In this document: positions 6,636 to 29,057 of the stretch, in pieces
Numbering within the stretch: the first letter of the stretch is position 1
How the letters are laid out: each line of letters begins with the position of its first letter
Assembly: GCA_031267775.1 (NCBI GenBank)
Contig: JAIRYL010000088.1
Span: 1-34,770, forward strand
Direction of reading: 5' to 3'
Length of the DNA: 34,770 nucleotides
Origin: Tannerellaceae bacterium
GTDB lineage: Bacteria > Bacteroidota > Bacteroidia > Bacteroidales > Tannerellaceae
Program-made: the position numbers and the translations under genes
Notes under the pieces: generated by a model
Told to the model about the DNA's origin: nothing
Databases searched by the model: none
What the model saw: the letters and a program-made list of their open reading frames with translations, nothing else

Positions 6636-9600
6636 CTAATACACATTTATTTCGTCTACAAAGAACCAGGCAGGGTTTCCCACGCCATAATGCCAGGGCG
6701 GACAAAGGCCGATTGTTTCTATCTTTATCTTTATGTAACGCGCTTTCAGCTTCTTATCGGCCGAGACGGCTACCGGCACATATTTTACCTCCACGTCCCG
6801 GTCTTCGGCAACGTTTGTATGTCCCATCAGTTGATACGCGTCGTTATCTGCAGAAACCGAACAGGTTATGCTCTCCGGCAATAAAATCCACGACCCTAAT
6901 TTATGCAAAAAATCAGCCTCTACGCGCTGCACTTCTTTTGTTTCCTTCAAGTCTATTATAAATTCCGCATCTTTGCCTGCCCATCCTACCCAGCTTTCAT
7001 TAAAAGTAGCGCCGCCATATAATCCGTCGGTCAAGGCTTTGCCGGCAATCCTGTCATAGGGCGAATCCGCCGGCAAAAGATAAGTAACCGGACAGTCTCG
7101 AGCCAAACTTACGCGCGTATCGGATAAATTACGCCGGATGTATAACTCGGCATATTCTTTTACCGTATTTCTCCGTTCGTTCAGCGTTACTACATGATAT
7201 TCATCCGCGCGATCGTTGAACAGTTGCAGCAACTCGCTGAGTTCTGCTTTGTTTTTGACCGGTTCGGTACGGGCAATCTCCAACTCGGCATACATAACGG
7301 GCAGGCGAGCTTCGCGCACTCTGTTTAAGAAGGTTTGATTATGAGCAACCGCCTGTTCTGCCTTGTCAAACAATTCTTTATAACGCTTTATCATGATTTT
7401 GTTCAGCATTCCATCCTTATGCGTGACGGGGGTATCGTATATCCAAAGCGATTTTTCGCTTCCCATGAGCGCCCCTTCGCGCAATTTGATATATTGGTAC
7501 AGATAGAAAGCGGCCGGTTCTCCGTAGTATTCCTGGAGGAAAGTCTGCATGATGGAATCTACGCCGGCGGATGTATTCCACATAAGCTTGGCGACAAGAT
7601 AGGCGCGCAGTTCTGAAAAATCGCCGCCCTTTACGCTGTTTATCTGCGAAAAGTGCATCGTAGCCTTGTTCCGCAGGAACAACTGCATGTTTGGCTGCAA
7701 GACATGCAGGTTAGGGAAAGGCGAAATGTAGTTGTCAAAGTTAATGCCATAGTCCCATACAAAAATATTATCCGAGATAGCCGCCCATCCTTCCATATCC
7801 TTCACAAATTTTTGTCCCGAAGCATTTTCCGTCAGAGGAACTTCGCGGTGACAATCAATATCGCAAAGCATGATATTGACGTTTGGCAAGGGTTTGGTAT
7901 GGCGGGGCGGAGGTACGGAATACAGGTAAGCCAGGGTAGAAAATTCTTTGTCGGGAAAACGTTCGGCCAATTTATTGACAAAGCGAATGATTGTTCCCGA
8001 CGGACTACCTTCGTATTCGTCAATCGCTTGACATGCGTCGCAAAAGCAATGCGTCTGGCTATCGTTCTGGCTTACGGAAATCATCCGTCTGTCCGGATGG
8101 GCTTTGAACAGGGAGTCTATCCGCGAAGCAACAATTTCAAACACTTGGGGATTTGCGAGACACCACTGGCTGGCGTCGCCCGGCCGTCGACGCCCGTTGA
8201 TATACGCATAATATTCGGGATGAGATTCTCCGTATTGCGAAGCGGGAAGCAAGCGGTTGAAGGTGTGTACCCACAGATTCTGGACAAAGACTTCGCCGGG
8301 AGATTCCAGGCGATGCCACAGTTTGTAGACAGGGTCTCGCTGGCTGCCGACGGCAACCTGGCGGTAACGAAACGCAGGATTGTCGACGCGCTTTATGCCG
8401 GCCGGCACGCACATATCCTTATTTTTGTGAATGGTATATACGTTTTCGGCCAAACAATGGACGCCGAAATAATCGTCCAGCAGGGCGACTACCCCATATA
8501 TGCTCCCCCTTCCCGTCGCTCCCTGAATAATACGGAGATAATCGGTTGTTATCAGGGCAAAACCATCCTCTTTGATATCTCCGGCCTCGAGGTCTTTTAC
8601 GGGGAGCTGAAAACGTCCGATCAAGACGTCGCCTTTCCTTCTGTCGCTCTCTGCCGGAAGAATTTCCAATTCAGCGCCGGTTATCCGCCGGACAAAATCT
8701 TGCAGTAATTCTGCAGTTTTTACATCCATCGTATCCGATCGGTCTATTAAAATACGCGAAAGCGCTTTTCCATTTTTTACCAGTTCAATTTGCGCCTGCG
8801 CAGGAGCGCCGGATACCGGCTGTTTCACATTAAAAATTCCTTTTAAACGGATATCCTTCGACGAGCTGCCCAGCATAACCCTGAAGTCTCCCGGTTCTAC
8901 CATCCGCTCCATGTTTACGTCGAGGCAAGAGAGGTCTTCCGGCGTAAGTTGGAACTGGACTTCTTTTGTTTCTCCGGGATTGAGAGAAATACGTTTAAAA
9001 CCCTTCAGTTCGTTGATAGGGCGGCTGAGGGTAGACGCCAGCAAATCATGAAGGTATAGCTGCACGACTTCGTCTCCAGCTACCTTTCCCGTATTGGTTA
9101 CTTTGCAGGAAACCCGGATATTTTCGTCGGGCGAGATAACAGGCGAGGAGAATACCAAATCCGAATAAGCAAACTGCGCGTAACTCAGTCCATGTCCAAA
9201 AGGGAACAGCGGTTCGCCGCTTAAATCCAGGTATTCGTCGCCCCGTCCGGTTGGTTTATGATTGTAGTTCAAGGGCAACTGTCCCTCTTGCCGGGGGAAA
9301 GTGAGCGGCAGTTTACCGCCCGGATTACAAGCGCCAAACAATACGCCGGCTACGGCCAAACCACCCACATCGCCCGGATACCATACATCCAGGACAGAAG
9401 GAATGCGTTCTATCCAGGCGTCCATCGTTATGGCGCTCCCACCCACCAGGACAACCACTGTGGGCACGCCGGTTTGAGCGACGCGATTGATAAGTTCTTC
9501 CTGCCTTCCGGGTAATGAAAGAAAAGCGCGGTCGCGAAATTCCGCTTCCTCAATACCGGCTACGACGATGGCTACGTCGCTGCTCCGGGCCGTTTCTACG

Positions 9601-11483
9601 GCTCGACGCATCGTATCGTCTTCGCTTTCCACGCCCACATTCCACAGCAAGCGAACACGCCCGTTGCGGCAGTTTTCGTAAAACTCCAAACGGATATCAT
9701 ACAGTTTGTCTTTTTCAAATGCAAAGGGAACGGTTTGTTGCGTATAAGTTGTTTTTGTCGGGCGCTCTACTATTTTTTTATTATCGATATAAAGCGCATA
9801 TCCATCGTTACCCTCTACGCCAATTTCAAAAGTTCCCGAGGCAGGCGCTTTCAACTGTCCGGTCCACCTGACCGAATACCAGTCGAAAGCAAACAGTTTC
9901 GGACTGGGCGAGTTTAGCGTCCACTGCATGCGCATATTCCTGTCGTACCTGGTCATCAGAGGTTCGCCCTCCCACCGGATATTATTAAAATATTCGCCTT
10001 TCAGTCCCTTTTCCCCACCGGCAGAGAGGCAAGAATCAGGAATTGTAACATATAAAGGCGCGTTTCTCCTGCAACCTTCGGCATAAAGCACGCGCGTTTC
10101 ATTGCCGGCTTCTTTTTCGATTCCTTTCAAGATGCTGATCCGTTCGACGCCCGGCCCGCTGTACCCCCCCAGCCGAGCTTGCGCCGCATCCTGTCCGAGC
10201 ACGGCAATTTGCTTCAGATTCCGGGACAGAGGCAGCGCGTTTCCTTCATTTTTAAGGAGAACGATAGACTTCTGCGCCGCTTGGAGGTTTAGCTCGCGAT
10301 GAGCCGGAGAAGCGCTCAGGCGGGAAGCCTCTCCAGGTTCTACGTATGGATTTTCGAACAATCCCAGCCGGAACTTTTCGCGCAATACGCGGCGGACGGC
10401 AGCGTCCAGGTTTTCGGGCGCCACAAGCCCTTTCCGGCACGCCTCCAGATAAGGCTTGTGCATATCGTAAGTAGCCTGAAATATCACATGCAGACCGTTG
10501 TTGAGCGCCGCGGCGCCCGCTTCTTCAAAATCAGCTACGGTATGATGAAGGTAATACATGATATCTACGGCGTTGGCGTCGGAAACGGCTACGCCATCAA
10601 ATCCCCATTCGTCGATCAACTTATCTTTCAGCAAAAAAGAACTGGCCGAACAGGGTACGCCGTCGAAGGTGTTGTAGGCCGTCATGACGGCATGCGATTT
10701 TCCTCTGGTAAAGCAAGCTTTAAAAGGCACGTAATACGTTTCTTCCATGAAACGATTGGAGAAATGCGCCGGATGACTGTCTCGCCCGCCGTCTCCATGG
10801 TTGACGACAAAATGCTTGGGCGTGGTAATTACGCCCATCTGTTCAAAACTGCTCACAAAAGCGACGCCCATGCAAGCCGAAAGATACGGGTCTTCGCCAT
10901 AGGTTTCTTCTACGCGCCCCCATCGCGGATCGGTAGCCAGGTTTACTACGGGAGAGAGAATCTGGCGGATACCCCTTGATTTACATTCGCTTGAAATGGC
11001 AGACGCCACCTGGCGCATCAGCGTAGTGTCGAAGGTTGCGGCCAGGGCGATGGCCTGCGGGAAAATGGTAGAGCCTCTGCGGATTAACCCATGCAAAGCC
11101 TCGTCGAACGGAATGATGGGGATACCCAGCCGGGTTTCTTCCACAAAAAACTTTTGAATATCATTTATATGTTCAGCGGTAGCCTGCGCGGTAAGTCCCG
11201 GTTCGTAATTAAGTATTTGCCGCTCCACGCCGGCGTCGTTACTGTACGTATGCACCTGAAGTCCGAATATACCCTGTTTCAGTTTATCCCGGCCGATGAT
11301 GTTCAGGTCGCCCGGCGTCATGTATACCTGCCAGAATTTTTCTTCGAGCGTCATTCGCGACAGCAGGTCGTCCACCCGCGTCTCTATCGGCAATCCGGGA
11401 TTTTTGTAAGGTAATCCGGTATTATCCCGTGCGGCTGCAAGCGTGCATAAAAAGCAGGCGAGCGCTATTAATTTTGTCTTCAT
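6636..11483 (-). CDS. Multidomain secreted protein: GH3 (with PA14 insert and Fn3-like tail) fused to DUF4838 region and C-terminal F5/8-type (discoidin-like) domain
   Basis: 1615 aa, one signal peptide. GH3 motifs TPKHFVVNHGDGGRDSH, GFDGVAVSDANAV, AGIEEAEFRDRAFLSLPGRQEELI; PA14 GLKGEYFNN...GNDGYALYIDNKKIV; DUF4838 part aligns by eye along its length with the 16513-18789 product. Confidence 0.9.
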   Translation of the reverse strand: MKTKLIALACFLCTLAAARDNTGLPYKNPGLPIETRVDDLLSRMTLEEKFWQVYMTPGDLNIIGRDKLKQGIFGLQVHTYSNDAGVERQILNYEPGLTAQATAEHINDIQKFFVEETRLGIPIIPFDEALHGLIRRGSTIFPQAIALAATFDTTLMRQVASAISSECKSRGIRQILSPVVNLATDPRWGRVEETYGEDPYLSACMGVAFVSSFEQMGVITTPKHFVVNHGDGGRDSHPAHFSNRFMEETYYVPFKACFTRGKSHAVMTAYNTFDGVPCSASSFLLKDKLIDEWGFDGVAVSDANAVDIMYYLHHTVADFEEAGAAALNNGLHVIFQATYDMHKPYLEACRKGLVAPENLDAAVRRVLREKFRLGLFENPYVEPGEASRLSASPAHRELNLQAAQKSIVLLKNEGNALPLSRNLKQIAVLGQDAAQARLGGYSGPGVERISILKGIEKEAGNETRVLYAEGCRRNAPLYVTIPDSCLSAGGEKGLKGEYFNNIRWEGEPLMTRYDRNMRMQWTLNSPSPKLFAFDWYSVRWTGQLKAPASGTFEIGVEGNDGYALYIDNKKIVERPTKTTYTQQTVPFAFEKDKLYDIRLEFYENCRNGRVRLLWNVGVESEDDTMRRAVETARSSDVAIVVAGIEEAEFRDRAFLSLPGRQEELINRVAQTGVPTVVVLVGGSAITMDAWIERIPSVLDVWYPGDVGGLAVAGVLFGACNPGGKLPLTFPRQEGQLPLNYNHKPTGRGDEYLDLSGEPLFPFGHGLSYAQFAYSDLVFSSPVISPDENIRVSCKVTNTGKVAGDEVVQLYLHDLLASTLSRPINELKGFKRISLNPGETKEVQFQLTPEDLSCLDVNMERMVEPGDFRVMLGSSSKDIRLKGIFNVKQPVSGAPAQAQIELVKNGKALSRILIDRSDTMDVKTAELLQDFVRRITGAELEILPAESDRRKGDVLIGRFQLPVKDLEAGDIKEDGFALITTDYLRIIQGATGRGSIYGVVALLDDYFGVHCLAENVYTIHKNKDMCVPAGIKRVDNPAFRYRQVAVGSQRDPVYKLWHRLESPGEVFVQNLWVHTFNRLLPASQYGESHPEYYAYINGRRRPGDASQWCLANPQVFEIVASRIDSLFKAHPDRRMISVSQNDSQTHCFCDACQAIDEYEGSPSGTIIRFVNKLAERFPDKEFSTLAYLYSVPPPRHTKPLPNVNIMLCDIDCHREVPLTENASGQKFVKDMEGWAAISDNIFVWDYGINFDNYISPFPNLHVLQPNMQLFLRNKATMHFSQINSVKGGDFSELRAYLVAKLMWNTSAGVDSIMQTFLQEYYGEPAAFYLYQYIKLREGALMGSEKSLWIYDTPVTHKDGMLNKIMIKRYKELFDKAEQAVAHNQTFLNRVREARLPVMYAELEIARTEPVKNKAELSELLQLFNDRADEYHVVTLNERRNTVKEYAELYIRRNLSDTRVSLARDCPVTYLLPADSPYDRIAGKALTDGLYGGATFNESWVGWAGKDAEFIIDLKETKEVQRVEADFLHKLGSWILLPESITCSVSADNDAYQLMGHTNVAEDRDVEVKYVPVAVSADKKLKARYIKIKIETIGLCPPWHYGVGNPAWFFVDEINVY

Positions 11484-11950: not shown

Positions 11951-13774
11951 CTATTTTTTCTTTGTTTGCCTGTCTTCCCAGCCGCTTTTGCCGTTATCCA
12001 TAAATACTTCCTGCAAGGATTTGGAAACGCGGTCGTCTACCTCTTCCACCAGATGAATCCGCAGCGGTTGCATGAGTTGTTTTCTCCAGGAAAGAACCGG
12101 GCCGAAGGGATTGGATTCCGTATCGATATGATAGATCATGAAAGCCCATTTCTCGGAAAAGATATTTCCTTTCGGCACGGGAACTACCTGCTGCATGTTG
12201 GCCGACAGGAATGGATGGGCCAAGGCGCGCGCCCAGTAAACCCAGGGACCTGTGGTAACATAAAAGTAAGGATTGAGCGTTCGGGGAGCCGATTCTATGC
12301 CGCTGTTGTCGTACCCCAACTGTATGCCGGCAAAAGCAATCCCGTTTGGGCGGTTGAAAAGCACAATCCATGGAACGTCGGCCTCCATCTTCAAGTCGGT
12401 TAGATCGGGCACGCTATTTACATCGTAAACGATAATGGTATCGCGCAAGGCGTCGTACCAGGCGGCATGCGTGATAAGTTCGCGTTTGAAAACCATTTCC
12501 GCATTCCGGAGCGCCAGCGCCTGCACCGTTTCATTAATCCGCATGCAGGTGGAACTGATAAAATAAGGCACGCCCGGATAAAATTCATACCTTACGGAAA
12601 CGTCTACCTGAGGCACGCCGCGGAGGTTATCCCAAAATTCCGTTTTGGCGACGACAGGCCCCGTCAGGATATGCATGCCCTTAGGCGCCTTCCAGTCGGC
12701 CGAGTGCGTCCAGGCCGAAGGCGGCACATAAATATCGGGATTCCAGTGCACCGCGCCGTTTGTTTCCATGCGGTGGAAAAGAGGTACATCCGGCCGGCTT
12801 TTCAGCGCCAACTGATCCAGATGCCCCGACCCGTTGTGCAGGGATACGGAATAGAGGCTGTTTGATATCTGAAGTCCCGGCGCGTCTCCCTGTACCTGCA
12901 GATCCGAATAGCAAGGCTCGACAAGGGCCTTCGGATTGTTATAATAAATCAGAAACACGCGGCTTGTTTTTGCCGGCACGCTGGCCAGAAACGAAACCCG
13001 CGCCGTAACGGTGGGCAACCAGAGCGGCACGCTGCGCGTGGGATTTCCGTTTTTGTCCGGCCCCATATCGTCTTCCTTCAGGTATTCCTGCACGTCGTAC
13101 ACCTGAGAAAGCGTCTCTTTAACCTCGTGCGTTTCGGGGTCTACCGATACCACGCGCACGTCGCGGGCTATGGATTCGGCTTCGTCGGGATAAAAAGCGA
13201 GCAAGACTTCCACGGGTTCGTTTTGGCGGTCGATCCCCGCCGTTTCGCTCAGCACGACAGATTTGTAATTCTTCCAGTCGGAGTTGAAAGTAGCGGCCTG
13301 GGCGGGCGCTTTCACTTTCCAGCTACCGCTTATAATTACGTCGTTGCGGGTAGCCTGCACCTCTTTTTTCATGCGTACGGCTACGCGGACGTCATATTCC
13401 TGTCCGGGTTGCCACTTCACCCAGCCTACTACCGTAAAATTCGTATAGCTTGCGCCATCCTGCGACAGTCCGTAGCCCGAAGAAGAACGTTCGGTTTGGG
13501 GAGGATGATTCCTGTCTGCCCTTCCCCTGCGGATATCTACCGCCCGGAGGACTTTTCCGTCTACCGTAACTTCTACCTCCATCATGGAAGATTGGGGCAG
13601 TTCTATATCTGCCTTGAAATGATAGTACGGAATTTCGGGATATGGAAATCCGAGTTCAATTCCCGACGCCTGCAAGGCGCTCGTTTCTTTCAGCTTTTGC
13701 GCTCCGATAACCAGCGAAGAGGCTATTATAAACAAAAGCGTTAGTCCTGTTTTAGATAAAATGTCAAGTTTCAT
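11951..13774 (-). CDS. Secreted protein of unknown function, probable beta-sandwich-rich glycan-active protein
   Basis: 607 aa, signal peptide; ISNSLYSVSLHNGSGHLDQLALKSRPDVPLFH and PYFISSTCMRINE resemble supersandwich/mutarotase-like segments by eye only. Confidence 0.8.
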   Translation of the reverse strand: MKLDILSKTGLTLLFIIASSLVIGAQKLKETSALQASGIELGFPYPEIPYYHFKADIELPQSSMMEVEVTVDGKVLRAVDIRRGRADRNHPPQTERSSSGYGLSQDGASYTNFTVVGWVKWQPGQEYDVRVAVRMKKEVQATRNDVIISGSWKVKAPAQAATFNSDWKNYKSVVLSETAGIDRQNEPVEVLLAFYPDEAESIARDVRVVSVDPETHEVKETLSQVYDVQEYLKEDDMGPDKNGNPTRSVPLWLPTVTARVSFLASVPAKTSRVFLIYYNNPKALVEPCYSDLQVQGDAPGLQISNSLYSVSLHNGSGHLDQLALKSRPDVPLFHRMETNGAVHWNPDIYVPPSAWTHSADWKAPKGMHILTGPVVAKTEFWDNLRGVPQVDVSVRYEFYPGVPYFISSTCMRINETVQALALRNAEMVFKRELITHAAWYDALRDTIIVYDVNSVPDLTDLKMEADVPWIVLFNRPNGIAFAGIQLGYDNSGIESAPRTLNPYFYVTTGPWVYWARALAHPFLSANMQQVVPVPKGNIFSEKWAFMIYHIDTESNPFGPVLSWRKQLMQPLRIHLVEEVDDRVSKSLQEVFMDNGKSGWEDRQTKKK

Positions 13775-13779
13775 ATCAA

Positions 13780-16500
13780 TTAGCGTGTAGATATTAAATT
13801 ACGATTTCGGAGTTCGTCTACTCCCTTCTGCCAGTGACCGCCCATCCCCCACATATAGTAAGAAAAATACATGGTACTTTTTTGATAAACGGGCGTCCAC
13901 GGCTGCAATTCGGCATAGTAATAATGCGCGTCCCTGTTTCGCGGATGATTCATCCACAGGTGCAGAAACAAAGGTTCGGTCACAGGGAAAGCGCCTGTAA
14001 AAGAAACGTCTTCCTCCGTATCATACCCTGCATTCCATCCCTCTTTCAGATACAAAACCCGGCCGTAGGTACGTTCCGGCTCCATCACAAATTGCCGGAT
14101 ACCGTCTTTTTCGGGTACGATAAAAACATCCTCCGTCCAATGCCTTTTCCCCAGTTCAAGTATCGGTTGCGGCCCGATTACATTCGCCTCCGGATTTTTA
14201 AACGTAAGCGCAAACCTCACTTCCAGCAGCGGCGAATTTCCATACAGCGTAAATATTTTCTCGATTTTATTGCCAAAATAATCCGCCGTCATCTTCAACT
14301 GCACATAATCGCCTTTGCTTTTAACCATTTCCGCCTGATAGATTTGATGCGTCTCCAGGCTGGCCTGCCCCAGGAAATCTTCAAATCCGCCAAAGGGATA
14401 ATACCCCCGCTTTCTGTAGGCGCGTTTATCGTCGCCGGCTTTTTCGGGCCACAGCTTAAACAGCACGTTATCGTTTCTCGACCTGACGATATACTCTATC
14501 ACGCGCGCGCCTGTTGCCAGCAAGGTAATCTGCACGCTGTCGTTTTCCATCCGGTATTCGTTCACGCCGTCGGCGTTCAGGTCTACTTCAGACAAAACAG
14601 AAACGCCCCCGCCGGCCGTTCCCACGCCCAGCCGGCTGCTGTTTTCCAGGCCCAAAGCGGTTACTTTTACGGTATAATGACCCGGCGGAACGTGCAGGTT
14701 GAAAGATAAATCCTGGAAAGCGCCGGTTGACGCCGTACACAGGCTCGAACTTTTGTATACGGTTCTTGCGGGATTTTCCATACTCAAAACCTCTACGTTT
14801 ACGGGGAATGACGATCGATCCGAAAAATTATGCACCGTAACCGGGTAAACAACCTCCGGCGCATGTCCGTACAACAACTGGTGAACGGAAATAAAACGCG
14901 GCAAACGAAGCGCCGTAACCGTACTTTTCCGCCGATCGCCCCAACTGAAATGCAAGGCAACCGGATTGACCTTCCCCATGGCCGAAGCAAGCGGGCGCAG
15001 ACTGAACTGCATCTTTTTCACGCCATGAGCGTCCAGATGCACCGGCAGCGACGCCTCTTCCATCATTTCCAGCTCCGGAGGAAGCGTCAGTTCCAGCTTG
15101 CCGTCGACCGCCTGCGGATACGTATTGGTTAAAACCACCTGGAGCGTATACCCTTCTACAAACGCATTTATCCTGATCCGGCCGGCAAAGTATTCTTCGG
15201 GAAAAACGCGGTCGAGCAGCAACAGCCCCATGGCCTGCCTGTACCGGTCGGGGCCCATCATTTTCCCGCCGTCCAGTACAGCCACTTCGCGCCGGTTCAT
15301 AATAGCGTCCCACAGATTCTTTTTTGTCAAAGGCTCATGCTTTTTGACAAAAAGAACCATCGCCGGTATGGCGTCGTCGTGCAGGTCGAGCGTAGGGCAG
15401 ACAAAAGGGACGTCTTCGTTATCAAGCTGCTCCTTATTACCGTCGAATCCTGCCGGCGACGGAAGCGTCCTCGCGGCGTCGTACGCTATATATCCGTCGT
15501 ACGGAAGATGCTCTACCAGCGCCGGCGTATCCGCCACCTGCCTGAACGCATACCCTCCCCGCTCGTGCGCGTACGCTATCCATTCCTCCCTGGAATAATT
15601 GCCCTGCACCTGCAAACCGTCGTAATTCCCGCACCCATAAACGGGCGGCGTTCCCACATCGGCTACCACCGGAAGGTTAACCTGCCCAACCCATCCGTCT
15701 ATTTCTTTCTGCGCCAGAAAGTCCATATACCCGTCAAAAACAAACCAGTCGTTCCCTTCGTCCATCCCTTTGCCCATCACGTCCAGGTAGTGGCCGGGCG
15801 TGCAGGTAACGCTTTTTTCCAGCGTTTTAGCGCCAAACCAGCCTTTATGAAGATCGTACTCCGCCAGTATTTCTTTGGTGGTATCGATCAGCCCGACTAA
15901 CTTGTTGCGACTATCTCGATGGGCCGACGCAATCACAAAAAGCTTCCGGTTGTCCCTTTCCAGCGTAAAGGCGCTTATTTCTACCAAACCTTCCGCCCCG
16001 TACTGATGGCTTTTCAGCGCCTCCCTGGCCGTTGCATGAAGGGTGGGAATATCCCTTGTAAGCCTCCGGCCCGTTTCCGAATTGGGATCGACGGTTATCA
16101 ACAGATCGCTCTTGGCCAGCGCCTCTTCCACCTGCCGCAGAGAAGGTTCTTCCAGCAACCGGCAGCCGGCGTCCAGCCAGTCGCTAAAAAAACCCTCCTG
16201 CAAGGATAATCCCGGAAGCCCCAAATCTTCGGCCACGTCTACCTTGCTCTGCATAATGCTGCGCGCTATATCCGGAACGGCTATCTTGTAAAGATTCCCG
16301 TAATAAATCCACTGCCGGTAAAGGTCGTGCCAGTAATTGGTATAGCCGTTAAACTGAAAGTCGGCGCGGACTATGTTTTCCTCAACGCCGGCGTCGCCTC
16401 TGTATAAAAAGCCATCCGCCGTTTGAGCGGCTACCAAAGCGTTTATACAAAGAAAAACCGGCATTATACATGCCACTTTAATTCTTGAACATATCGTCAT
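13780..16500 (-). CDS. Large secreted protein of unknown function, C-terminal beta-sandwich-like region
   Basis: 906 aa, signal peptide; DLNADGVNEYRMENDSVQITLLATGARVIEYIVRSRNDNVLFKLWP recalls C-terminal sandwich domains of glycosidases; N-terminal half unassigned. Confidence 0.8.
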   Translation of the reverse strand: MTICSRIKVACIMPVFLCINALVAAQTADGFLYRGDAGVEENIVRADFQFNGYTNYWHDLYRQWIYYGNLYKIAVPDIARSIMQSKVDVAEDLGLPGLSLQEGFFSDWLDAGCRLLEEPSLRQVEEALAKSDLLITVDPNSETGRRLTRDIPTLHATAREALKSHQYGAEGLVEISAFTLERDNRKLFVIASAHRDSRNKLVGLIDTTKEILAEYDLHKGWFGAKTLEKSVTCTPGHYLDVMGKGMDEGNDWFVFDGYMDFLAQKEIDGWVGQVNLPVVADVGTPPVYGCGNYDGLQVQGNYSREEWIAYAHERGGYAFRQVADTPALVEHLPYDGYIAYDAARTLPSPAGFDGNKEQLDNEDVPFVCPTLDLHDDAIPAMVLFVKKHEPLTKKNLWDAIMNRREVAVLDGGKMMGPDRYRQAMGLLLLDRVFPEEYFAGRIRINAFVEGYTLQVVLTNTYPQAVDGKLELTLPPELEMMEEASLPVHLDAHGVKKMQFSLRPLASAMGKVNPVALHFSWGDRRKSTVTALRLPRFISVHQLLYGHAPEVVYPVTVHNFSDRSSFPVNVEVLSMENPARTVYKSSSLCTASTGAFQDLSFNLHVPPGHYTVKVTALGLENSSRLGVGTAGGGVSVLSEVDLNADGVNEYRMENDSVQITLLATGARVIEYIVRSRNDNVLFKLWPEKAGDDKRAYRKRGYYPFGGFEDFLGQASLETHQIYQAEMVKSKGDYVQLKMTADYFGNKIEKIFTLYGNSPLLEVRFALTFKNPEANVIGPQPILELGKRHWTEDVFIVPEKDGIRQFVMEPERTYGRVLYLKEGWNAGYDTEEDVSFTGAFPVTEPLFLHLWMNHPRNRDAHYYYAELQPWTPVYQKSTMYFSYYMWGMGGHWQKGVDELRNRNLISTR

Positions 16501-20957: not shown

Positions 20958-22973
20958 TTAATGTCCCGGATTTTGCGTCAAACGATTGGTTTCCGTACTT
21001 GGAATAGCCTTATAGTAGTTTATCGGATTGAATTGCCGCCCGCCCGCTTGTTCGTCATGAAACTGATTGACGCGAACAAAAATGTATTTGGGCGTTCCTT
21101 CGCGAAGATCAACCAAAGGAACCAGCGCATGTCGCCTGCCTACGTTGAAAAAGGTGTGGTATTCGCGCCGGCGAAGCATATCGTCGTATCTCCTGCCTTC
21201 AAAAGCCAATTCTACCCTTCGCTCTTTCATAACGGTTTGAACCGTTAGCGGAATCTCGTCGGTATGGCCGGCTCTTTTCCGTAATTGATTTATATAGCTT
21301 CCGGCCAGCGTAGCGTCGCCCTGTCCGCTTTCTACGGCCGCTTCGGCATAATTCAGGTAGATTTCGGCCAGGCGGAAATCAATCCACGTTGTAGTAGACA
21401 CGGCCGTACTTCCGGTAACTACCACATTTTTATTCTCGGCCAGGTATTTCCGGATAGAAAATCCGGTACAGGAAAAATTCGAGTTTTCCATCCCTCCGCC
21501 TAAATTATCGAAGCCCGAATAACCGGCCGGACTGGCGGCGCCATAGGTGTAATACATTTTTCCGTCAAGCCCTTCTTCACTGCCGACGGCGTAAGCCACA
21601 ACATCTCCGTTTTTGCGGACAAGGCCGCCCTGCATAATAATTTTCACATCTTTATACATCGCTCCCGGAACGATTACGCTGCTAAGCAGACGCACGTCCT
21701 TCCCGGCAAAGGGTTCGTACAGATCATCGTATTTTTTGAACGGAACCGTCAGTTGGATATTATTCGGATTTGCATAGTAAAAATCCTCGTTGCCATCCTC
21801 GCGGGTTATTATTTTTGCGCTGGCGCCGCTTCCGTTATCGGTATAATCTTCGTATACGTCGACGATATCCAGGGTCACGCTGAAACGTCCGTGACGGAGA
21901 AATCCGGGATGGTTTTGCGCCGGGCTATAGAAGGCGTCGTAACTATGTCCCTGATTACTGACAAGCGATCCGTCTAAAAAAGCTTTTCCGAAAATAATTT
22001 CATTATTGGCCGTTAAAAACAAGTTTTGATAATTGGCCGCCGCCTCTTCCCTGTTTGCCGGATTGGGCATATACAAGGTATATCCCGAATTATCAATAAT
22101 CGCCTTGCAAGCGTTGATACATTCCAAATAATACCGATTTGCTTCGGAAGAAGAAACGCCCACATATCCTAACGTGGCAGCTTCGCCGATTAAGGGAGCG
22201 CTGTTCCAGAATTTTGCAACCGAAGCGGCATACAAAGCAACCCTCGATTTCAAGGCGTATGCAGCCCATTTACCGGCGCGATATTTACCATCTGCAAGCG
22301 TTTCCGGAAGACTGGCTATTGCTTTGTCGCAATCGCCCAAAATAAAATCCCACGTATCCTTTTCCGTACTGCGGGGAATATACAAAGCCGCGCTCTCCGT
22401 GCCCGGCGTATAATCGTTGTCCAGCGGCTTTTCCAGGATGGGAACGCCTCCGTAGCTTTTTGTCAGGCCAAAGTAAAGGTAAGCCCGTATAAAATAAGCT
22501 TCGCCTTGCAAGCGAGTAAATGTAGCTTCGGTAAGAACCTGCTCGTCTCGGGCTTTTTCAATACCTGTCAGAAACAAATTCAAGTCGCGAAGGCGCGCGT
22601 AAGCATATTCAAAATAATTGTTATCCGGCTGTCCTATGGGGTCGCTTCCGTCCGAGCGAATGGCGTCGCCGGTATACATATCGGTCGTAGCAAAATGAGC
22701 GCCCTGCCCTATACCGCGAATATAAAAGCCGCCATATCCCTGTGCATCGGTAGCAGTGCCAACGCCCGGATGATAATTGAAATCTTCCACAGGCATGGCA
22801 TTATATAATTCCGCCAAAAGCGTAAGTATACCTTTTTCGCTGGTTAACAGTTGATCTCCGCTTACTTTCGTTAACGGCTCCACTTCGAGGTATTGCGTAC
22901 ATCCTGCATGCAACGTCAACAAAAAAGCCGTAAAAACGATCCATGCTTTACTTTTCAATATATTCTTTTTCAT
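20958..22973 (-). CDS. SusD/RagB-family nutrient-binding lipoprotein
   Basis: 671 aa; HAGCTQYLEVEPLTKVSGDQLLTSEKGI..., RLQGEAYFIRAYLYFGLTKSYGGVPI, VMKERRVELAFEGRRYDDMLRR. Confidence 0.95.
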   Translation of the reverse strand: MKKNILKSKAWIVFTAFLLTLHAGCTQYLEVEPLTKVSGDQLLTSEKGILTLLAELYNAMPVEDFNYHPGVGTATDAQGYGGFYIRGIGQGAHFATTDMYTGDAIRSDGSDPIGQPDNNYFEYAYARLRDLNLFLTGIEKARDEQVLTEATFTRLQGEAYFIRAYLYFGLTKSYGGVPILEKPLDNDYTPGTESAALYIPRSTEKDTWDFILGDCDKAIASLPETLADGKYRAGKWAAYALKSRVALYAASVAKFWNSAPLIGEAATLGYVGVSSSEANRYYLECINACKAIIDNSGYTLYMPNPANREEAAANYQNLFLTANNEIIFGKAFLDGSLVSNQGHSYDAFYSPAQNHPGFLRHGRFSVTLDIVDVYEDYTDNGSGASAKIITREDGNEDFYYANPNNIQLTVPFKKYDDLYEPFAGKDVRLLSSVIVPGAMYKDVKIIMQGGLVRKNGDVVAYAVGSEEGLDGKMYYTYGAASPAGYSGFDNLGGGMENSNFSCTGFSIRKYLAENKNVVVTGSTAVSTTTWIDFRLAEIYLNYAEAAVESGQGDATLAGSYINQLRKRAGHTDEIPLTVQTVMKERRVELAFEGRRYDDMLRRREYHTFFNVGRRHALVPLVDLREGTPKYIFVRVNQFHDEQAGGRQFNPINYYKAIPSTETNRLTQNPGH

Positions 22974-22984
22974 ACTTTTTGCTG

Positions 22985-25900
22985 TTAAAAGTTAATACTT
23001 AACCCGAAATTCACGGCTTTCATAATCGGATACGTCAAATTCGCATTATAATCCTTTTCCTGTTTTTCAGGGTCGATTTTTTTCAATTCTTTATTCGTGA
23101 TTGTAAAAATATTAGTGGTTTTCACAAAGAGCTTTACATCCGATATATTCCATTTTTTAAGGATGGAAGAAGGCAGGGAATAACCAAGCTCAATATTCTT
23201 CAAACGCAGATAGTTACCCATCGGACGGAACAAACTGATCACGTTATCGCTTGTAACCCCCGGCCGCGGATTTACCCAGGGACGCAAGGGAGCGAATTTA
23301 CCGGGAATCCAGGCAGTAGCCGGATCGTAAGGATCGGCTTCTATGCTGTTTGTATGCCAGCGATCATAGTATTTTTCGTGCAAAGTAGGATATCGTCCGT
23401 AACCCCAAATATCATTCGAGGCAAAATTGACGGAATATAACGCAGCTCCCTGGAAAAGCAAATTCAAACTGAATGATTTATACGTACCCATAAAGGTAAG
23501 ACCATACTGCAAAGGCGGATTAACGGCCCCCGTGCTATTGCTTGTGCCGGAAGTGTATCCTTCGTCGCCAAATGTCCAATTGTCGAAAACCCTGTCGTTA
23601 TTATTAATCACGCCGTCTCCATTTGTGTCTATAATACGAAATTCGCCCGGCAACATTTTTGAATTTCCCAATGTCCCTCCATGCAAAGGTCCCGTTTCAA
23701 ATTGTTCCAACGACGTATATTGCCCGTCGTAGTTAAAAATCAAGGAACGTCCCGTGTAACGATCTTCGTTTCCGTTTTGCCATCTGTCCCACTGGCTTGT
23801 GAAGGCCGCTCTTTCCGTATGCAACCGTTTTTGACGCGCATACGTTGCATTCGCCGTTACACTATACGTAAAATCGTTTCCTATTTTTCCCTGATGCGTC
23901 AGATTCAGTTCCATTCCGACATTCATATCCGAGTTGATATTCTCCTGCGGAAATGAAGCGCCGAAGAAATTGGGCACCGTCGTGATACGGGTAGCTAAAA
24001 TACCTGTGTTTTTACGTTTGAACAGGTCAAAAGAACCTCCGAATTTTCCGCCCGGCAAATCGAAATCAATACCGATATTGGATATTCGGGTAGTTACCCA
24101 CGACAGCAAATTATTAACGACGCCAGGAGGATACATGCCCGTAGTTAACGTGCCTGCATCAAAAATATACCCCCTGGCCGCATTGCTTGTATATCCCGGT
24201 ATGTATTGAAAAGCGTCTCCCGCGTCGCGACCGCTTTCGCCATACGAAGCCCTAATCTTCAGGTTCTCCAGGAAAGGCAGCAGATTTTTCACAAATTTTT
24301 CTTCCGACAAACGCCATCCTATACTTGCCGAAGGGAAAAACACCCATCGTTTTTCCGGCGCATACCGGAACGAGCCGTCGTATCGCCCCACCAGTTCCAC
24401 TAAATATTTATTGGCATAATCATAATTCAAACGTCCGAAATAGGCGGCCAGCCGGCCAAATTCACGAAAGCCCAGGTTGGTTGCCGTAGTAGCGGTACCC
24501 TGGTTCAGGATGTCATGCGTATACAAGTCGCTATACAAGCGCTGCCCTCTCAGTCGATCCGCCCGCTCATTGGAACCTTCCATCGCGCCCATAACATTAA
24601 ATGAATGCGAACCGACGCGTTTATTGTAAGTAGCCATCAGGCGGAGATAGGCTTTTTCATAAAGGTCGATTTGGTTATAATAAGAATCTGTGCCGTAAGT
24701 GGCCTGGTAGAGATCGGAAAAATAGTCGTATAACTCGTAGCTTCTCGAAAGGTACGATTCGTTGATTTGACGGATGTTGTAATCCGTCAAGGCCGAAAGC
24801 GTCAAACCTTTTACAAAAGGAACCGTATACGTCAATTCAACTTGCGCTTGCCCGTTGAGCGTTTCCCAGCGGCGATACCCGTCTACATCCGGATCGATAA
24901 ACGCCATCAGGTTTTTGCCTTCGGGAGCTATTAGCGTATAATGTTCGTCATTATCCATCGTATGCCAGTTTTTACCGCGTTCGCTGGTCATAAGCGCTTT
25001 ATATACAGCCCAGAAATCATCCCGTTTACTTTGTCGCTTATCCTGGCGGCCCGAAAAGCCGATGTTCATCTTCAAATCTTTCGTCAGGGCGGCCGTTACA
25101 TTGGAACGGAAATTATAGCGTTTGTAATACATGATATCGCTGCTTAAAAGTCCTTCATCCGACGTAAATCCCGCACTGGCAAAATACTGCACCTTGTCGG
25201 TTCCTCCCCTGACAGACAGGTTATGATTTTGCTGGGACACGGAATTGTGCATGGTCAGGTCTATCCAGTCGATATCCTGATAGCCGGGTTGATTTGTCCT
25301 GTATTTTTCAAGAAGGTCAAAATCATACGCCGCATACATCCCTTTGCCGTCATTCCGTTGCATTTCATTGGCCATCTGCATATAATTATATGCGTCCATG
25401 GTCAGTTCCATACCGGTCGGCGTTTTCACGCCGTACAATCCCGTATAGGTGAACCGCGCTTTTCCCTGCGCAGTTCCTTTCTTTGTCGTTACGATAATAG
25501 CGCCGTTGGCGGCATTCATTCCATAAATGGCGGCGGAGGCGTCTTTCAGGATAGAGACGCTTTCAATATCTTCCGCGCTCAATTGCGCCAATTCTTTAAC
25601 AGCGTCGCCGGCTTCCCTGCCGCTACGCGTAACGCCGTCAATAATGATAAGCGGATTGCCATAACCGCGAATACTGATCATATTGTCAAACACGCCCGGT
25701 TCGCCGGTTTGCTGACGAATCAATAAGCCGGCTACTTTTCCCTGAATATTGGTGACAAAATTCTCCGTTTTGGTGGAAATGATTTCTTCGCCTTTTATAG
25801 CCGTAACGGCGCCAGACAGGGTTTCCTTTTTTTGTACCCCATAACCTACGACAACTACCTCTTCCAACATCTGACGGTCTTCCGCCAACCGGATAGTAAA

Positions 25901-26512
25901 TGCGCTCTGATTGCCTACGTTAATTTCCTGCGTTATATACCCTATATAACTAATCACTAACTGATTGTCGGACGAAACCTGGGTAATGGCAAATTTCCCT
26001 TCCGCATCGGTGATAGTGCCTTTGGCCGTTCCTTTAACGCCTACAGACGCTCCGATAAGCGGTTCGCCGGCTTCGTCAACCACCGTGCCGGTAACCGTTT
26101 TGGTTTGCTGCTGAAAAACAATATTGCTTTCGGAAGAAGACCTGTTTTTTGCCAGAGCAATGTATTTGTTCTGAAATTCATAACGAATATCCGTATCGGA
26201 AAAAACTTCGTTCAACATAGATACCAGATTTCCCGTTTTATTCTGAATACGTACAACGCGATTCATATCAACGTCTTCATTACGATACAGAATTAAGAAA
26301 TCGGTCTGACGCTCAATTTCCGTTATAAACTGTTTAATGGACAGTTCATTCGAATAAATCTCAATTTTAACATTCTGAGCGTCTGTATTAATAGCTGTTG
26401 CATGAAAAACAACGGCAAAAAGAAAGAGAAATGAAATTCTTGTGATTCTTGAAAAATTTTTAAAGTGTTCCTTTTTGAAGATAAAAGGAATCACAAATCG
26501 TTTTTTTTCCAT
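22985..26512 (-). CDS. SusC/RagA-family TonB-dependent transporter with N-terminal STN signalling domain
   Basis: 1175 aa; STN-like VKIEIYSNELSIKQFITEIERQTDFLILYRNEDVDMNRVVRI; carboxypeptidase-regulatory-like domain; VVVVGYGVQKKETLSGAV TonB/plug motifs. Confidence 0.95.
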   Translation of the reverse strand: MEKKRFVIPFIFKKEHFKNFSRITRISFLFLFAVVFHATAINTDAQNVKIEIYSNELSIKQFITEIERQTDFLILYRNEDVDMNRVVRIQNKTGNLVSMLNEVFSDTDIRYEFQNKYIALAKNRSSSESNIVFQQQTKTVTGTVVDEAGEPLIGASVGVKGTAKGTITDAEGKFAITQVSSDNQLVISYIGYITQEINVGNQSAFTIRLAEDRQMLEEVVVVGYGVQKKETLSGAVTAIKGEEIISTKTENFVTNIQGKVAGLLIRQQTGEPGVFDNMISIRGYGNPLIIIDGVTRSGREAGDAVKELAQLSAEDIESVSILKDASAAIYGMNAANGAIIVTTKKGTAQGKARFTYTGLYGVKTPTGMELTMDAYNYMQMANEMQRNDGKGMYAAYDFDLLEKYRTNQPGYQDIDWIDLTMHNSVSQQNHNLSVRGGTDKVQYFASAGFTSDEGLLSSDIMYYKRYNFRSNVTAALTKDLKMNIGFSGRQDKRQSKRDDFWAVYKALMTSERGKNWHTMDNDEHYTLIAPEGKNLMAFIDPDVDGYRRWETLNGQAQVELTYTVPFVKGLTLSALTDYNIRQINESYLSRSYELYDYFSDLYQATYGTDSYYNQIDLYEKAYLRLMATYNKRVGSHSFNVMGAMEGSNERADRLRGQRLYSDLYTHDILNQGTATTATNLGFREFGRLAAYFGRLNYDYANKYLVELVGRYDGSFRYAPEKRWVFFPSASIGWRLSEEKFVKNLLPFLENLKIRASYGESGRDAGDAFQYIPGYTSNAARGYIFDAGTLTTGMYPPGVVNNLLSWVTTRISNIGIDFDLPGGKFGGSFDLFKRKNTGILATRITTVPNFFGASFPQENINSDMNVGMELNLTHQGKIGNDFTYSVTANATYARQKRLHTERAAFTSQWDRWQNGNEDRYTGRSLIFNYDGQYTSLEQFETGPLHGGTLGNSKMLPGEFRIIDTNGDGVINNNDRVFDNWTFGDEGYTSGTSNSTGAVNPPLQYGLTFMGTYKSFSLNLLFQGAALYSVNFASNDIWGYGRYPTLHEKYYDRWHTNSIEADPYDPATAWIPGKFAPLRPWVNPRPGVTSDNVISLFRPMGNYLRLKNIELGYSLPSSILKKWNISDVKLFVKTTNIFTITNKELKKIDPEKQEKDYNANLTYPIMKAVNFGLSINF

Positions 26513-26670
26513 AACTTTGCGATTGTAAAGTGAATACTAAAATCCTATTTTAATTTGCTCGCAAAATAAATTACAGTGATTTCTTAGGAAAATAAGAAGT
26601 TCTTTTTGTGATAACAGCAAATTATTTGAACAAAAAGATGTTTCGATTTAACAAAAGAGGATATAATTTA

Positions 26671-26786
26671 TTGCGAAAAACTCAACTAATCATTCCTTTG
26701 CGGAAAATTCTGACAGGCTTTAAACTTATTTTTCATGGTGTTTACTTTTCCACGACAGAAGTGGCCGCTTCTGCCGTGCTTTTTTT
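26671..26786 (+). ncRNA. Candidate plus-strand (antisense) small RNA, transcript approx 26706-26786, with promoter-like sequence and terminator
   Basis: TTG (26671-26673), 19-bp spacer, TTCCTTTG (26693-26700; one mismatch to TAnnTTTG); hairpin CACGACAGAAG-TGGCCG-CTTCTGCCGTG (26751-26778, one A.C mismatch), then C and T7. Confidence 0.45.
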
Positions 26787-26879
26787 GAAACATTTTACTT
26801 CATGAGCGTAGCCTCTGACAAGTCATACGTTTTTTCTCATAGGCGCTTGTTTTTAAAGGGTTCGATATTATGTTTATTC

Positions 26880-27851
26880 TCACAGACTTATTATCACGGT
26901 ACTCTTTTCTTCAATCTTCCGAATCTTTAAGGGATAAACTTTGCAAAGCGCCCTCAAGATTTCGTCAATACCATCCCGTTGCCGGAATTTCATGGTATAC
27001 TTCCATTTAAGTATAGCCGGGTTTTTTACTTCTATTTTGATATCATAATAGAGTTCTAATTTTTTTAATATATTACCCAGCGTTTCGTTTTCAAAACTGT
27101 ATATGCCTTCTTTCCACAAAAAATAATCATTATTCGGAATTTTGCCGATAATCATGGTTTGATTTTGAACTATCACTTCTTCCTGCGGACGAAGCGTCAC
27201 TTCTATATCCGGCGACGTTTTACTGTGTACCGATATGCTGCCTTCCAGAAGACTGATGCGGCTAACAGGTTCGTCCGGGTAGCTATACACATTGAAAGAT
27301 GTGCCTGCTACTTTAACTTCCGTTCCATTTGCAGAAACAATAAAGGGTTTGCTTTTATCTTTTGCCACTTCAAAAAAAGCTTCTCCTTCGACGGAAACGC
27401 GCCGTTGAGCGCCAACAAAAGCTGTAGGATAGGTTAAGCGCGTCCGGGCGTTCAGCCATACCGCCGTACCGTCGGAAAGGGTTAGTGAAACGCGCTGGCC
27501 CGCAGGTACAAACAAGGACGTTTCGGATATGTTTACCGAATGCCGGTAGTAATAAACATGATAGAAATGAACGGATATCGTCAGTAACGCAATTGCCGCC
27601 GCATAACCGACTGTTCGACAGGCATATCGATAGAACGTACGCAGTTTCATACGACGCATGAATTGCTTATAGCTGCGAACCGCATCGAAGGGATTATCCA
27701 CATCTCCGGAAAAAGCAAGCAATGCTTCGGCATTCTGATACCGGCCAAATGCCTCTCGCTTTTCTTTATCAGACGTCAATTCGCACAGGAAAGCCATTCT
27801 TTCATCCCTGTTCATCTTTCCAAGAAAATAATCCTCAACTTCTCTGTTCAT
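26880..27851 (-). CDS. FecR-family anti-sigma factor
   Basis: From MNREVEDYFLGKMNRDERMAFLCEL; FVPAGQRVSLTLSDGTAVWLNARTRLTYP...GEAFFEVAKDKSKPFIVSANGTEVKVAGTSFNVYSY. The track's longer ORF (to 28046) runs into the palindromic element and is probably a false extension. Confidence 0.92.
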   Translation of the reverse strand: MNREVEDYFLGKMNRDERMAFLCELTSDKEKREAFGRYQNAEALLAFSGDVDNPFDAVRSYKQFMRRMKLRTFYRYACRTVGYAAAIALLTISVHFYHVYYYRHSVNISETSLFVPAGQRVSLTLSDGTAVWLNARTRLTYPTAFVGAQRRVSVEGEAFFEVAKDKSKPFIVSANGTEVKVAGTSFNVYSYPDEPVSRISLLEGSISVHSKTSPDIEVTLRPQEEVIVQNQTMIIGKIPNNDYFLWKEGIYSFENETLGNILKKLELYYDIKIEVKNPAILKWKYTMKFRQRDGIDEILRALCKVYPLKIRKIEEKSTVIISL

Positions 27852-27964
27852 TTTTTCTGTGTTTATAATATGAAAACACATGGGGGAAAAAAATCCGCTA
27901 ACTAATTGTCGGGAAATTCTTCCAAGCGATGAAAAATAAACAGGATATACCCGTTTTCGTTCCT

Positions 27965-28161
27965 GAACGCCGCAGGCGTTCCATGTGGGTAACCCCCGGC
28001 GAGGCGAAGCTACCGGGTGCATGCGGAGCACGCCGCGCCGCCCCAACCTGTAAGGTTGAACTCCTCGGAGCGAGGAGAGAGGAGAGAGGGGGAGAGCGTC
28101 TCGCTACCCCCCGGTCGTTTCGCTTTACTGGGGGTTACTAACATTTGTCCCGTCAGGGACA
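27965..28161. repeat. Composite palindromic (REP/MITE-like) element
   Basis: GAACGCC-GCA-GGCGTTC (27965-27981); outer inverted repeat GTAACCCCC (27989-27997)/GGGGGTTAC (28130-28138); CAACCT-GTA-AGGTTG (28044-28058); CTCCTCG-GAG-CGAGGAG (28061-28077); TGTCCC-GTCA-GGGACA (28146-28161). Confidence 0.8.
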
Positions 28162-28490: not shown

Positions 28491-29057
28491 TTAATAGAAA
28501 CAGATGGCAAGAACAAGCGTGAAATATTGTTTTAGCTCTTTTCTGAGACGCCGGTATGCAATTCCCATTTGCGTTTCAACCGTATGGGGGGATATTTGAA
28601 GCTCTTCGGCAATTTCTTTCTGCTTTTTGTTTTTTATTTTACTCATGACAAAGATTTGCCGGCAGCGTTCCGGCAGCGTATCCAGCGCTTTTTTCAGTTT
28701 TTCTTCAACGCCGTTCGGATCAGATAAAAAATCCAGGTTAAGCACTTCCAGTGAATTTATACCGGCTTGTAAGGTTAATTTGTATTCTTCTTGAATTTTA
28801 TCCGCAGATTCTTGCTTCATAGTCTGGTGGCGCAAATAATTAAGGCATCTGTTTTTGGTCGAAACAAAAAGATAAGCTACCAGGTTGTCATATTCAAATC
28901 GTATATCCCGTTTTTCCCATAGTTCGGCAAAAACATCCTGTACAATATTTTCCGCTTCTTCTTCCGACAAAACATATACCTTGGCAAAATATTTCATCTT
29001 TGAAAAATATAGTAAGTAGATTTTTTCAAAGTTTGCAATTTGATCATTCTTTTCCAA
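28491..29057 (-). CDS. ECF (FecI-like) RNA polymerase sigma factor
   Basis: 188 aa; AENIVQDVFAELWEKRD, KNRCLNYLRHQ, LPERCRQIFVMSKIKNKKQKEIAEELQISPHTVETQMGIAYRRLRKEL. Confidence 0.93.
   Translation of the reverse strand: MEKNDQIANFEKIYLLYFSKMKYFAKVYVLSEEEAENIVQDVFAELWEKRDIRFEYDNLVAYLFVSTKNRCLNYLRHQTMKQESADKIQEEYKLTLQAGINSLEVLNLDFLSDPNGVEEKLKKALDTLPERCRQIFVMSKIKNKKQKEIAEELQISPHTVETQMGIAYRRLRKELKQYFTLVLAICFY

Follow-up and report, generated by a model that had tools for sequence, protein, structure and literature searches.

A predicted DonS-like antisense RNA of unusual length at the anti-sigma/susC junction of a Tannerellaceae PUL

Introduction

Antisense RNAs at PULs with ECF sigma factors are already known in human-gut Bacteroides. 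DonS belongs to a family of cis-antisense RNAs, 78-128 nt long, described as lowering susC expression in Bacteroides (PMC7366714). For B. thetaiotaomicron, 32 PUL-associated cis-antisense RNAs are on record, some anti-correlated and some positively correlated with susC (PMC10994844). A preliminary description of the DNA studied here proposed a DonS-like RNA of about 80 nt, antisense to the susC leader, in a Tannerellaceae bacterium, a host that is related to Bacteroides, the home of DonS, but does not belong to it. This raises the question of whether the junction between the anti-sigma gene and susC encodes such an RNA, from which promoter it would start and how long it would be. Judging from comparison with related junctions, the locus very probably encodes a small RNA antisense to susC, and an unusually long one.

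Results and discussion

The locus

The window, by which we mean the whole 34,770-nt stretch of DNA that was analysed, covers positions 1-34,770 of contig JAIRYL010000088.1 (GCA_031267775.1, Tannerellaceae bacterium). Its genome, G000, is an incomplete draft of 232 contigs that is 67% complete. We confirmed the gene order ECF sigma factor, FecR, susC and susD, with all four genes on the minus strand:

28491-29057, minus strand: ECF sigma factor (Sigma70_r2 and Sigma70_r4_2)
26880-28046, minus strand: anti-sigma factor of the FecR family (FecR and FecR_C)
22985-26512, minus strand: susC, TonB-dependent transporter (Plug and CarbopepD_reg_2), whose leader the predicted RNA opposes
20958-22973, minus strand: susD

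An orthologous locus is present in G013 and G016, where the junction is 83% and 80% identical, respectively, to that of the window. The PUL carries genes for an alpha-L-fucosidase and for GH3 and DUF4838 proteins, which would be compatible with fucosylated glycans. One of its products, a 1615-aa protein (6636-11483, minus strand), combines a GH3 glycosidase carrying PA14 with DUF4838 and an F5/8 type C domain, and the same PUL also holds a separate DUF4838 protein besides the alpha-L-fucosidase. Two further large PUL proteins of 607 and 906 aa (11951-13774 and 13780-16500, minus strand) have no Pfam match at E 0.001.

A terminator and two promoter-like boxes in the window

Three plus-strand elements of the junction could delimit an antisense RNA:

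26512-26519, plus strand: -7 box TAACTTTG of a putative antisense promoter, identical in G013 and G016 and at the position seen family-wide
26671-26700, plus strand: TTG-N19-TTCCTTTG, the promoter named in the preliminary description, an unconserved candidate start for an 80-nt form
26751-26786, plus strand: predicted Rho-independent terminator with a 12-position stem, one A.C mismatch, a GGCC loop and a T7 tract

The terminator can be read directly from the DNA, and its earlier coordinates are correct: the hairpin CACGACAGAAGT-GGCC-GCTTCTGCCGTG at 26751-26778, with its single A.C mismatch, is followed by a C and by T7 at 26780-26786. It sits on the plus strand between FecR and susC, with no plus-strand gene upstream. 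A generic scan of 2 kb returned 2 terminator-like sites against 2.3 expected from shuffles, so the window site alone proves little, and RNA of 26700-26790 folds no more stably than shuffles do (z 0.10). By a stricter score, the site is one of only 4 that good on both strands of the 34.8 kb, and a three-way alignment of the window with G013 and G016 shows that both orthologues keep the hairpin and the T-tract. Its significance comes from comparison across loci, that is, from the box position, the restriction of terminators to the antisense strand and covariation.

The TAACTTTG box is a perfect TAnnTTTG and begins at the T of the plus-strand CAT that corresponds to the susC start codon. G013 and G016 share with the window the box, the AAAGTGAATACTAAAAT that follows it, and GGTGTTTRCTTTT. 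The preliminary description had noted this box as a second, perfect -7 element, and it proves to be present, conserved in both orthologues and family-wide. The motif as such is common, with TAnnTTTG seen 29 times in the window (26 expected) and TTG-N19-TnnnTTTG 6 times (1.9 expected). In the window, the TAACTTTG box has no TTG at the usual -33 spacing, and across the family a -33 TTG is not enriched, accompanying only 10 of 76 boxes. The housekeeping (sigma-ABfr type) TAnnTTTG signal of DonS-type RNAs is thus carried here by the -7 box alone, with the -33 TTG missing. For comparison, 52% of the B. thetaiotaomicron cis-antisense RNAs have a canonical promoter (PMC7366714).

The promoter favoured earlier is also present as described, with TTG at 26671-26673, a 19-bp spacer and TTCCTTTG at 26693-26700 on the plus strand. 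However, it is not conserved, as both G013 and G016 have CTCCTTTA where the window has TTCCTTTG. Both boxes exist, but the conserved one is the start-codon box, which the preliminary description had listed as secondary.

The box and the terminator recur at FecR-susC junctions of the genus

We parsed 130 FecR_C loci of the window's genus for a following susC and obtained 112 usable FecR-susC junctions from 19 genomes. An antisense TAnnTTTG overlaps the susC start codon in 71 of the 112, and in 76 after start re-calling, while at other junction positions the box occurs 0.12 times on average per position. It was found at 0 of 27 SusC-type genes without FecR and at none of the 18 other genes of the window; in sequence terms, it is not a general start-codon feature.

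Terminators follow the same pattern. At the strict score, they were detected on the antisense strand of 52 of 111 junctions and on the sense strand of 0 of 111, compared with 2 in 333 shuffles, and 0 of 24 non-FecR control genes had an antisense terminator of this quality. About a third of the junctions have no exact match to the box, and in half of them no terminator passes the strict score; since the parsing chooses start codons automatically, some of the box-less junctions may be mis-called starts. The RNAs predicted from these signals have a median length of 87 nt (all 43). In L165, L159, L096, L202 and similar loci, TAnnTTTG is found 40-100 nt upstream of the annotated start of susC, followed by a stem and a terminator; in these cases the start codon may have been annotated wrongly, or the promoter may have shifted.

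Stem I covaries and points to selection on the antisense strand

The sequence between box and terminator is predicted to form a further shared element, which we call stem I, in which the first ~25 nt of the RNA pair with the stretch immediately 5' of the terminator. In the window, the predicted RNA and its parts are as follows:

26524-26786, plus strand: predicted antisense RNA of ~263 nt, from 5 nt after the box to the end of the terminator
26527-26539, plus strand: stem I 5' arm, AAAGTGAATACTA
26540-26735, plus strand: region between the stem-I arms, with an insertion of ~180-200 nt found only in the orthogroup G000, G013 and G016
26736-26748, plus strand: stem I 3' arm, TGGTGTTTACTTT

The start at 26524 follows from the published spacing of the Bacteroidota sigma-A box, at -12 to -5 (PMC9723704). 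The two arms form 13 consecutive pairs, including G.U pairs that are possible only in plus-strand RNA. The family-wide arms read AAGTGAATAC/GTGTTTACTT in the window and TTAATAC/GTGTTAA, GTTAATAC/GTGTTGAC and others elsewhere, and the stem is also seen in the short loci L119 and L243.

In a plain sequence alignment of twenty short members the terminator aligns and stem I does not; the stem was therefore assessed by anchoring its arms and swapping them between loci. Each locus's own partners pair better than swapped ones (P 2e-5, an optimistic value because the junctions are related and not independent). Swapping the 3' arms reduced the canonical flank pairs from 122 to 99.7 +/- 5.1, and only 1 of 20000 shuffles came up to 122; one flank pair occurs as G.U, U-A, A-U and U.G. 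The family terminators covary at 12 of 13 pairs. Within stem I, G.U outnumbers A.C by 63 to 10, and this excess indicates that selection acts on the antisense strand. Consistent with this, pre-terminator folding is stronger in the antisense than in the sense direction (z -2.48 vs -0.61; n = 44, P 6e-8, again optimistic given the relatedness of the junctions). Taken together, a box over the start codon of susC, a stem I and a terminator make up a rule that picks out candidate loci from DNA alone.

An insertion in stem I lengthens the predicted RNA

Predicted RNAs of the orthogroup G000/G013/G016 are 255-264 nt long, compared with 70-127 nt for every other predicted RNA, and the ~263 nt of the window is explained by the insertion between the stem-I arms. 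G013 and G016 both keep the box, the two arms and the terminator. No match to the insertion was found elsewhere among the fetched loci. It is predicted to fold, with double changes at only two pairs among the three sequences. The complete predicted RNA (26524-26786) folds at z -2.07 relative to shuffles, and the pre-terminator part of the window beats shuffles modestly (z -1.8).

The length of ~80 nt proposed earlier did not hold up, as the start-codon box gives ~263 nt and the promoter for the shorter form is unconserved. A transcript of ~80 nt could still start at TTG-N19-TTCCTTTG inside the insertion and use the same terminator, leaving the start-codon box unused or minor. Such an RNA would have the length published for the DonS family, and its TTG stands at the right distance, which the start-codon box lacks. 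However, its box deviates from consensus (TTnnTTTG) and is replaced by CTCCTTTA in the orthologues, whereas the competing start-codon box is invariant in them and found family-wide; moreover, the short form would be without the 5' arm of stem I, although the pairing of the arms is conserved. We therefore consider the ~80-nt form improbable.

A candidate ECF promoter faces the predicted antisense RNA

Upstream of the susC leader, the junctions share a further motif, represented in the window by two elements:

26837-26844, minus strand: GCCTATGA, a conserved motif and candidate -10 region of the susC promoter (ECF sigma)
26850-26862, minus strand: AACCCTTTAAAAA, an AACC/TTTAAA-like candidate for the upstream element of that promoter

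In the genus, 77 of 111 junctions have GCCTATGA within one mismatch, against 11% of shuffles, at a median of 28 nt after the FecR stop, and an AACC/TTTAAA-like element lies upstream of it across junctions. Prediction of ECF-dependent susC promoters has been called a challenging task (PMC3878776); we propose GCCTATGA and its upstream element, on grounds of sequence, as a candidate common promoter for ECF-controlled susC genes. The distance from the end of the antisense RNA to the motif is a median of 22 nt in the junctions and ~50 nt in the window. On this reading, a single motif would have to serve numerous distinct ECF sigma factors within a genome. The leader itself contains a 35-codon minus-strand ORF (26686-26793, MFQKKHGRSG...) that may encode a leader peptide.

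Proposed mechanism and alternatives

We favour, with a probability of roughly 0.74, a DonS-type cis-antisense RNA that starts from the start-codon box, is lengthened by the insertion in stem I and holds susC down. The sequence evidence covers the box, the terminator, the stem, the strand, the conservation and the length; transcription, the precise ends of the RNA, repression and its mode are inferred. The housekeeping sigma factor would start the RNA at the -7 box over the susC start codon, ~12 nt before that codon on the mRNA, and transcription would head toward the anti-sigma gene. The RNA would fold into stem I and the terminator hairpin and end ~50 nt before the putative ECF promoter, so that it would be complementary to most of the leader while the sense promoter is not transcribed over. 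Without glycan, the RNA most likely lowers susC through leader pairing and possibly through head-on transcription; upon release of the ECF sigma factor, sense transcription would prevail. Repression of susC is proposed here by analogy with DonS. As the terminator would stop the antisense polymerase before the sense promoter, leader pairing seems likelier than promoter occlusion.

It could be argued that the act of antisense transcription alone matters, through interference with susC transcription, and that the RNA itself is inert. The antisense promoter is indeed placed where the sense leader ends, facing the sense promoter, and the leader-covering RNA does not reach the susC start codon. Nevertheless, the compensatory changes in stem I and its strand-specific G.U pairs indicate selection on the RNA, and terminators that end short of the sense promoter limit promoter occlusion, so we give this explanation only a small chance.

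Less probable still is that the hairpin is an element of the leader of susC mRNA, serving as an attenuator, for stability or as the site at which a trans-acting RNA like FopS binds, and that the box is part of the translation start region. The minus strand can fold the hairpin too, as the preliminary description had rightly cautioned, and repression of susC by FopS RNAs takes place close to the start codon (PMC11697453). Yet across 44 junctions structure is stronger on the antisense strand, sense terminators are absent from all 111, other genes lack the box, which retains the nn spacing of a -7 element, and no Rfam family matches; the reading of the junction as a FopS target site was rejected. 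A small protein from the 55-codon plus-strand ORF through the hairpin (26638-26805, an open frame beginning MFRFNKRG...) is scarcely credible, and the ORF was rejected as a coding gene, as, read by eye, its frame stops after 24 codons in G013 and lacks the start codon in G016, and an RNA ending at 26786 would truncate it.

Returning to the DonS-type RNA, one may speculate that Bacteroidales use such junctions as a compact two-way switch, in which every sense polymerase has to pass an antisense promoter built into the susC start codon, while the antisense RNA would extend over the leader and end just before the ECF-type promoter; the insertion of the orthogroup, as a folded domain, could add an input or a target. 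This wider proposal is tentative, and we regard it as rather unlikely.

Likeness to DonS and to FopS/GibS

The likeness to DonS as described in PMC7366714 and PMC10994844 is one of place, strand and length, and agreement in these three respects is the main reason for the DonS-type reading. DonS, like the window RNA, lies between the anti-sigma gene and susC on the strand opposite susC, and both have a housekeeping-type -7 box and a Rho-independent terminator at the 3' end. The DonS length of 78-128 nt is matched by the sister loci and not by the window RNA itself, which would measure ~263 nt from the conserved box owing to the stem-I insertion; only the unconserved internal promoter would yield ~80 nt. 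Of the original DonS-like proposal, position and strand are thus strongly backed by comparison, whereas the main promoter and the length differ. A search of Rfam returned no relevant family in the window or in twelve sister loci, and no structural model of antisense RNAs at ECF-sigma PULs came to light.

FopS and GibS (PMC11697453) are likewise small RNAs with a terminator, and they repress susC genes. Unlike the window RNA, they act in trans, are 65-70 nt long and begin with a single-stranded seed at the 5' end in place of stem I. Membership in the FopS family was discarded, as there is no Rfam hit and the 5' end of the window RNA lies in stem I.

The arrangement outside the genus

The comparison would extend the known class to Tannerellaceae and Butyricimonas, with precise ends predicted from sequence. 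The start-codon box is found at 6 of 10 junctions in P. goldsteinii and at 7 of 10 in Butyricimonas. Among FecR-linked junctions of Flavobacteriia and Sphingobacteriia (L013-L087) it occurs at 11 of 72, so the arrangement is weaker there; this count is far above chance and much rarer than in Bacteroidales.

The FecR at locus L259 of B. cellulosilyticus DSM 14838 is the second-best relative found (42% identity). This locus has the same stem I as the window (AGAGTGAATACT / GGTGTTTACTTT), the box at the susC start and the terminator, but its predicted RNA is about 80 nt long and lacks the insertion. Three further genomes of Bacteroides, the genus to which B. cellulosilyticus belongs, have the box at 15 of 26 junctions, with 15 antisense and 0 sense terminators and predicted lengths of 76-124 nt.
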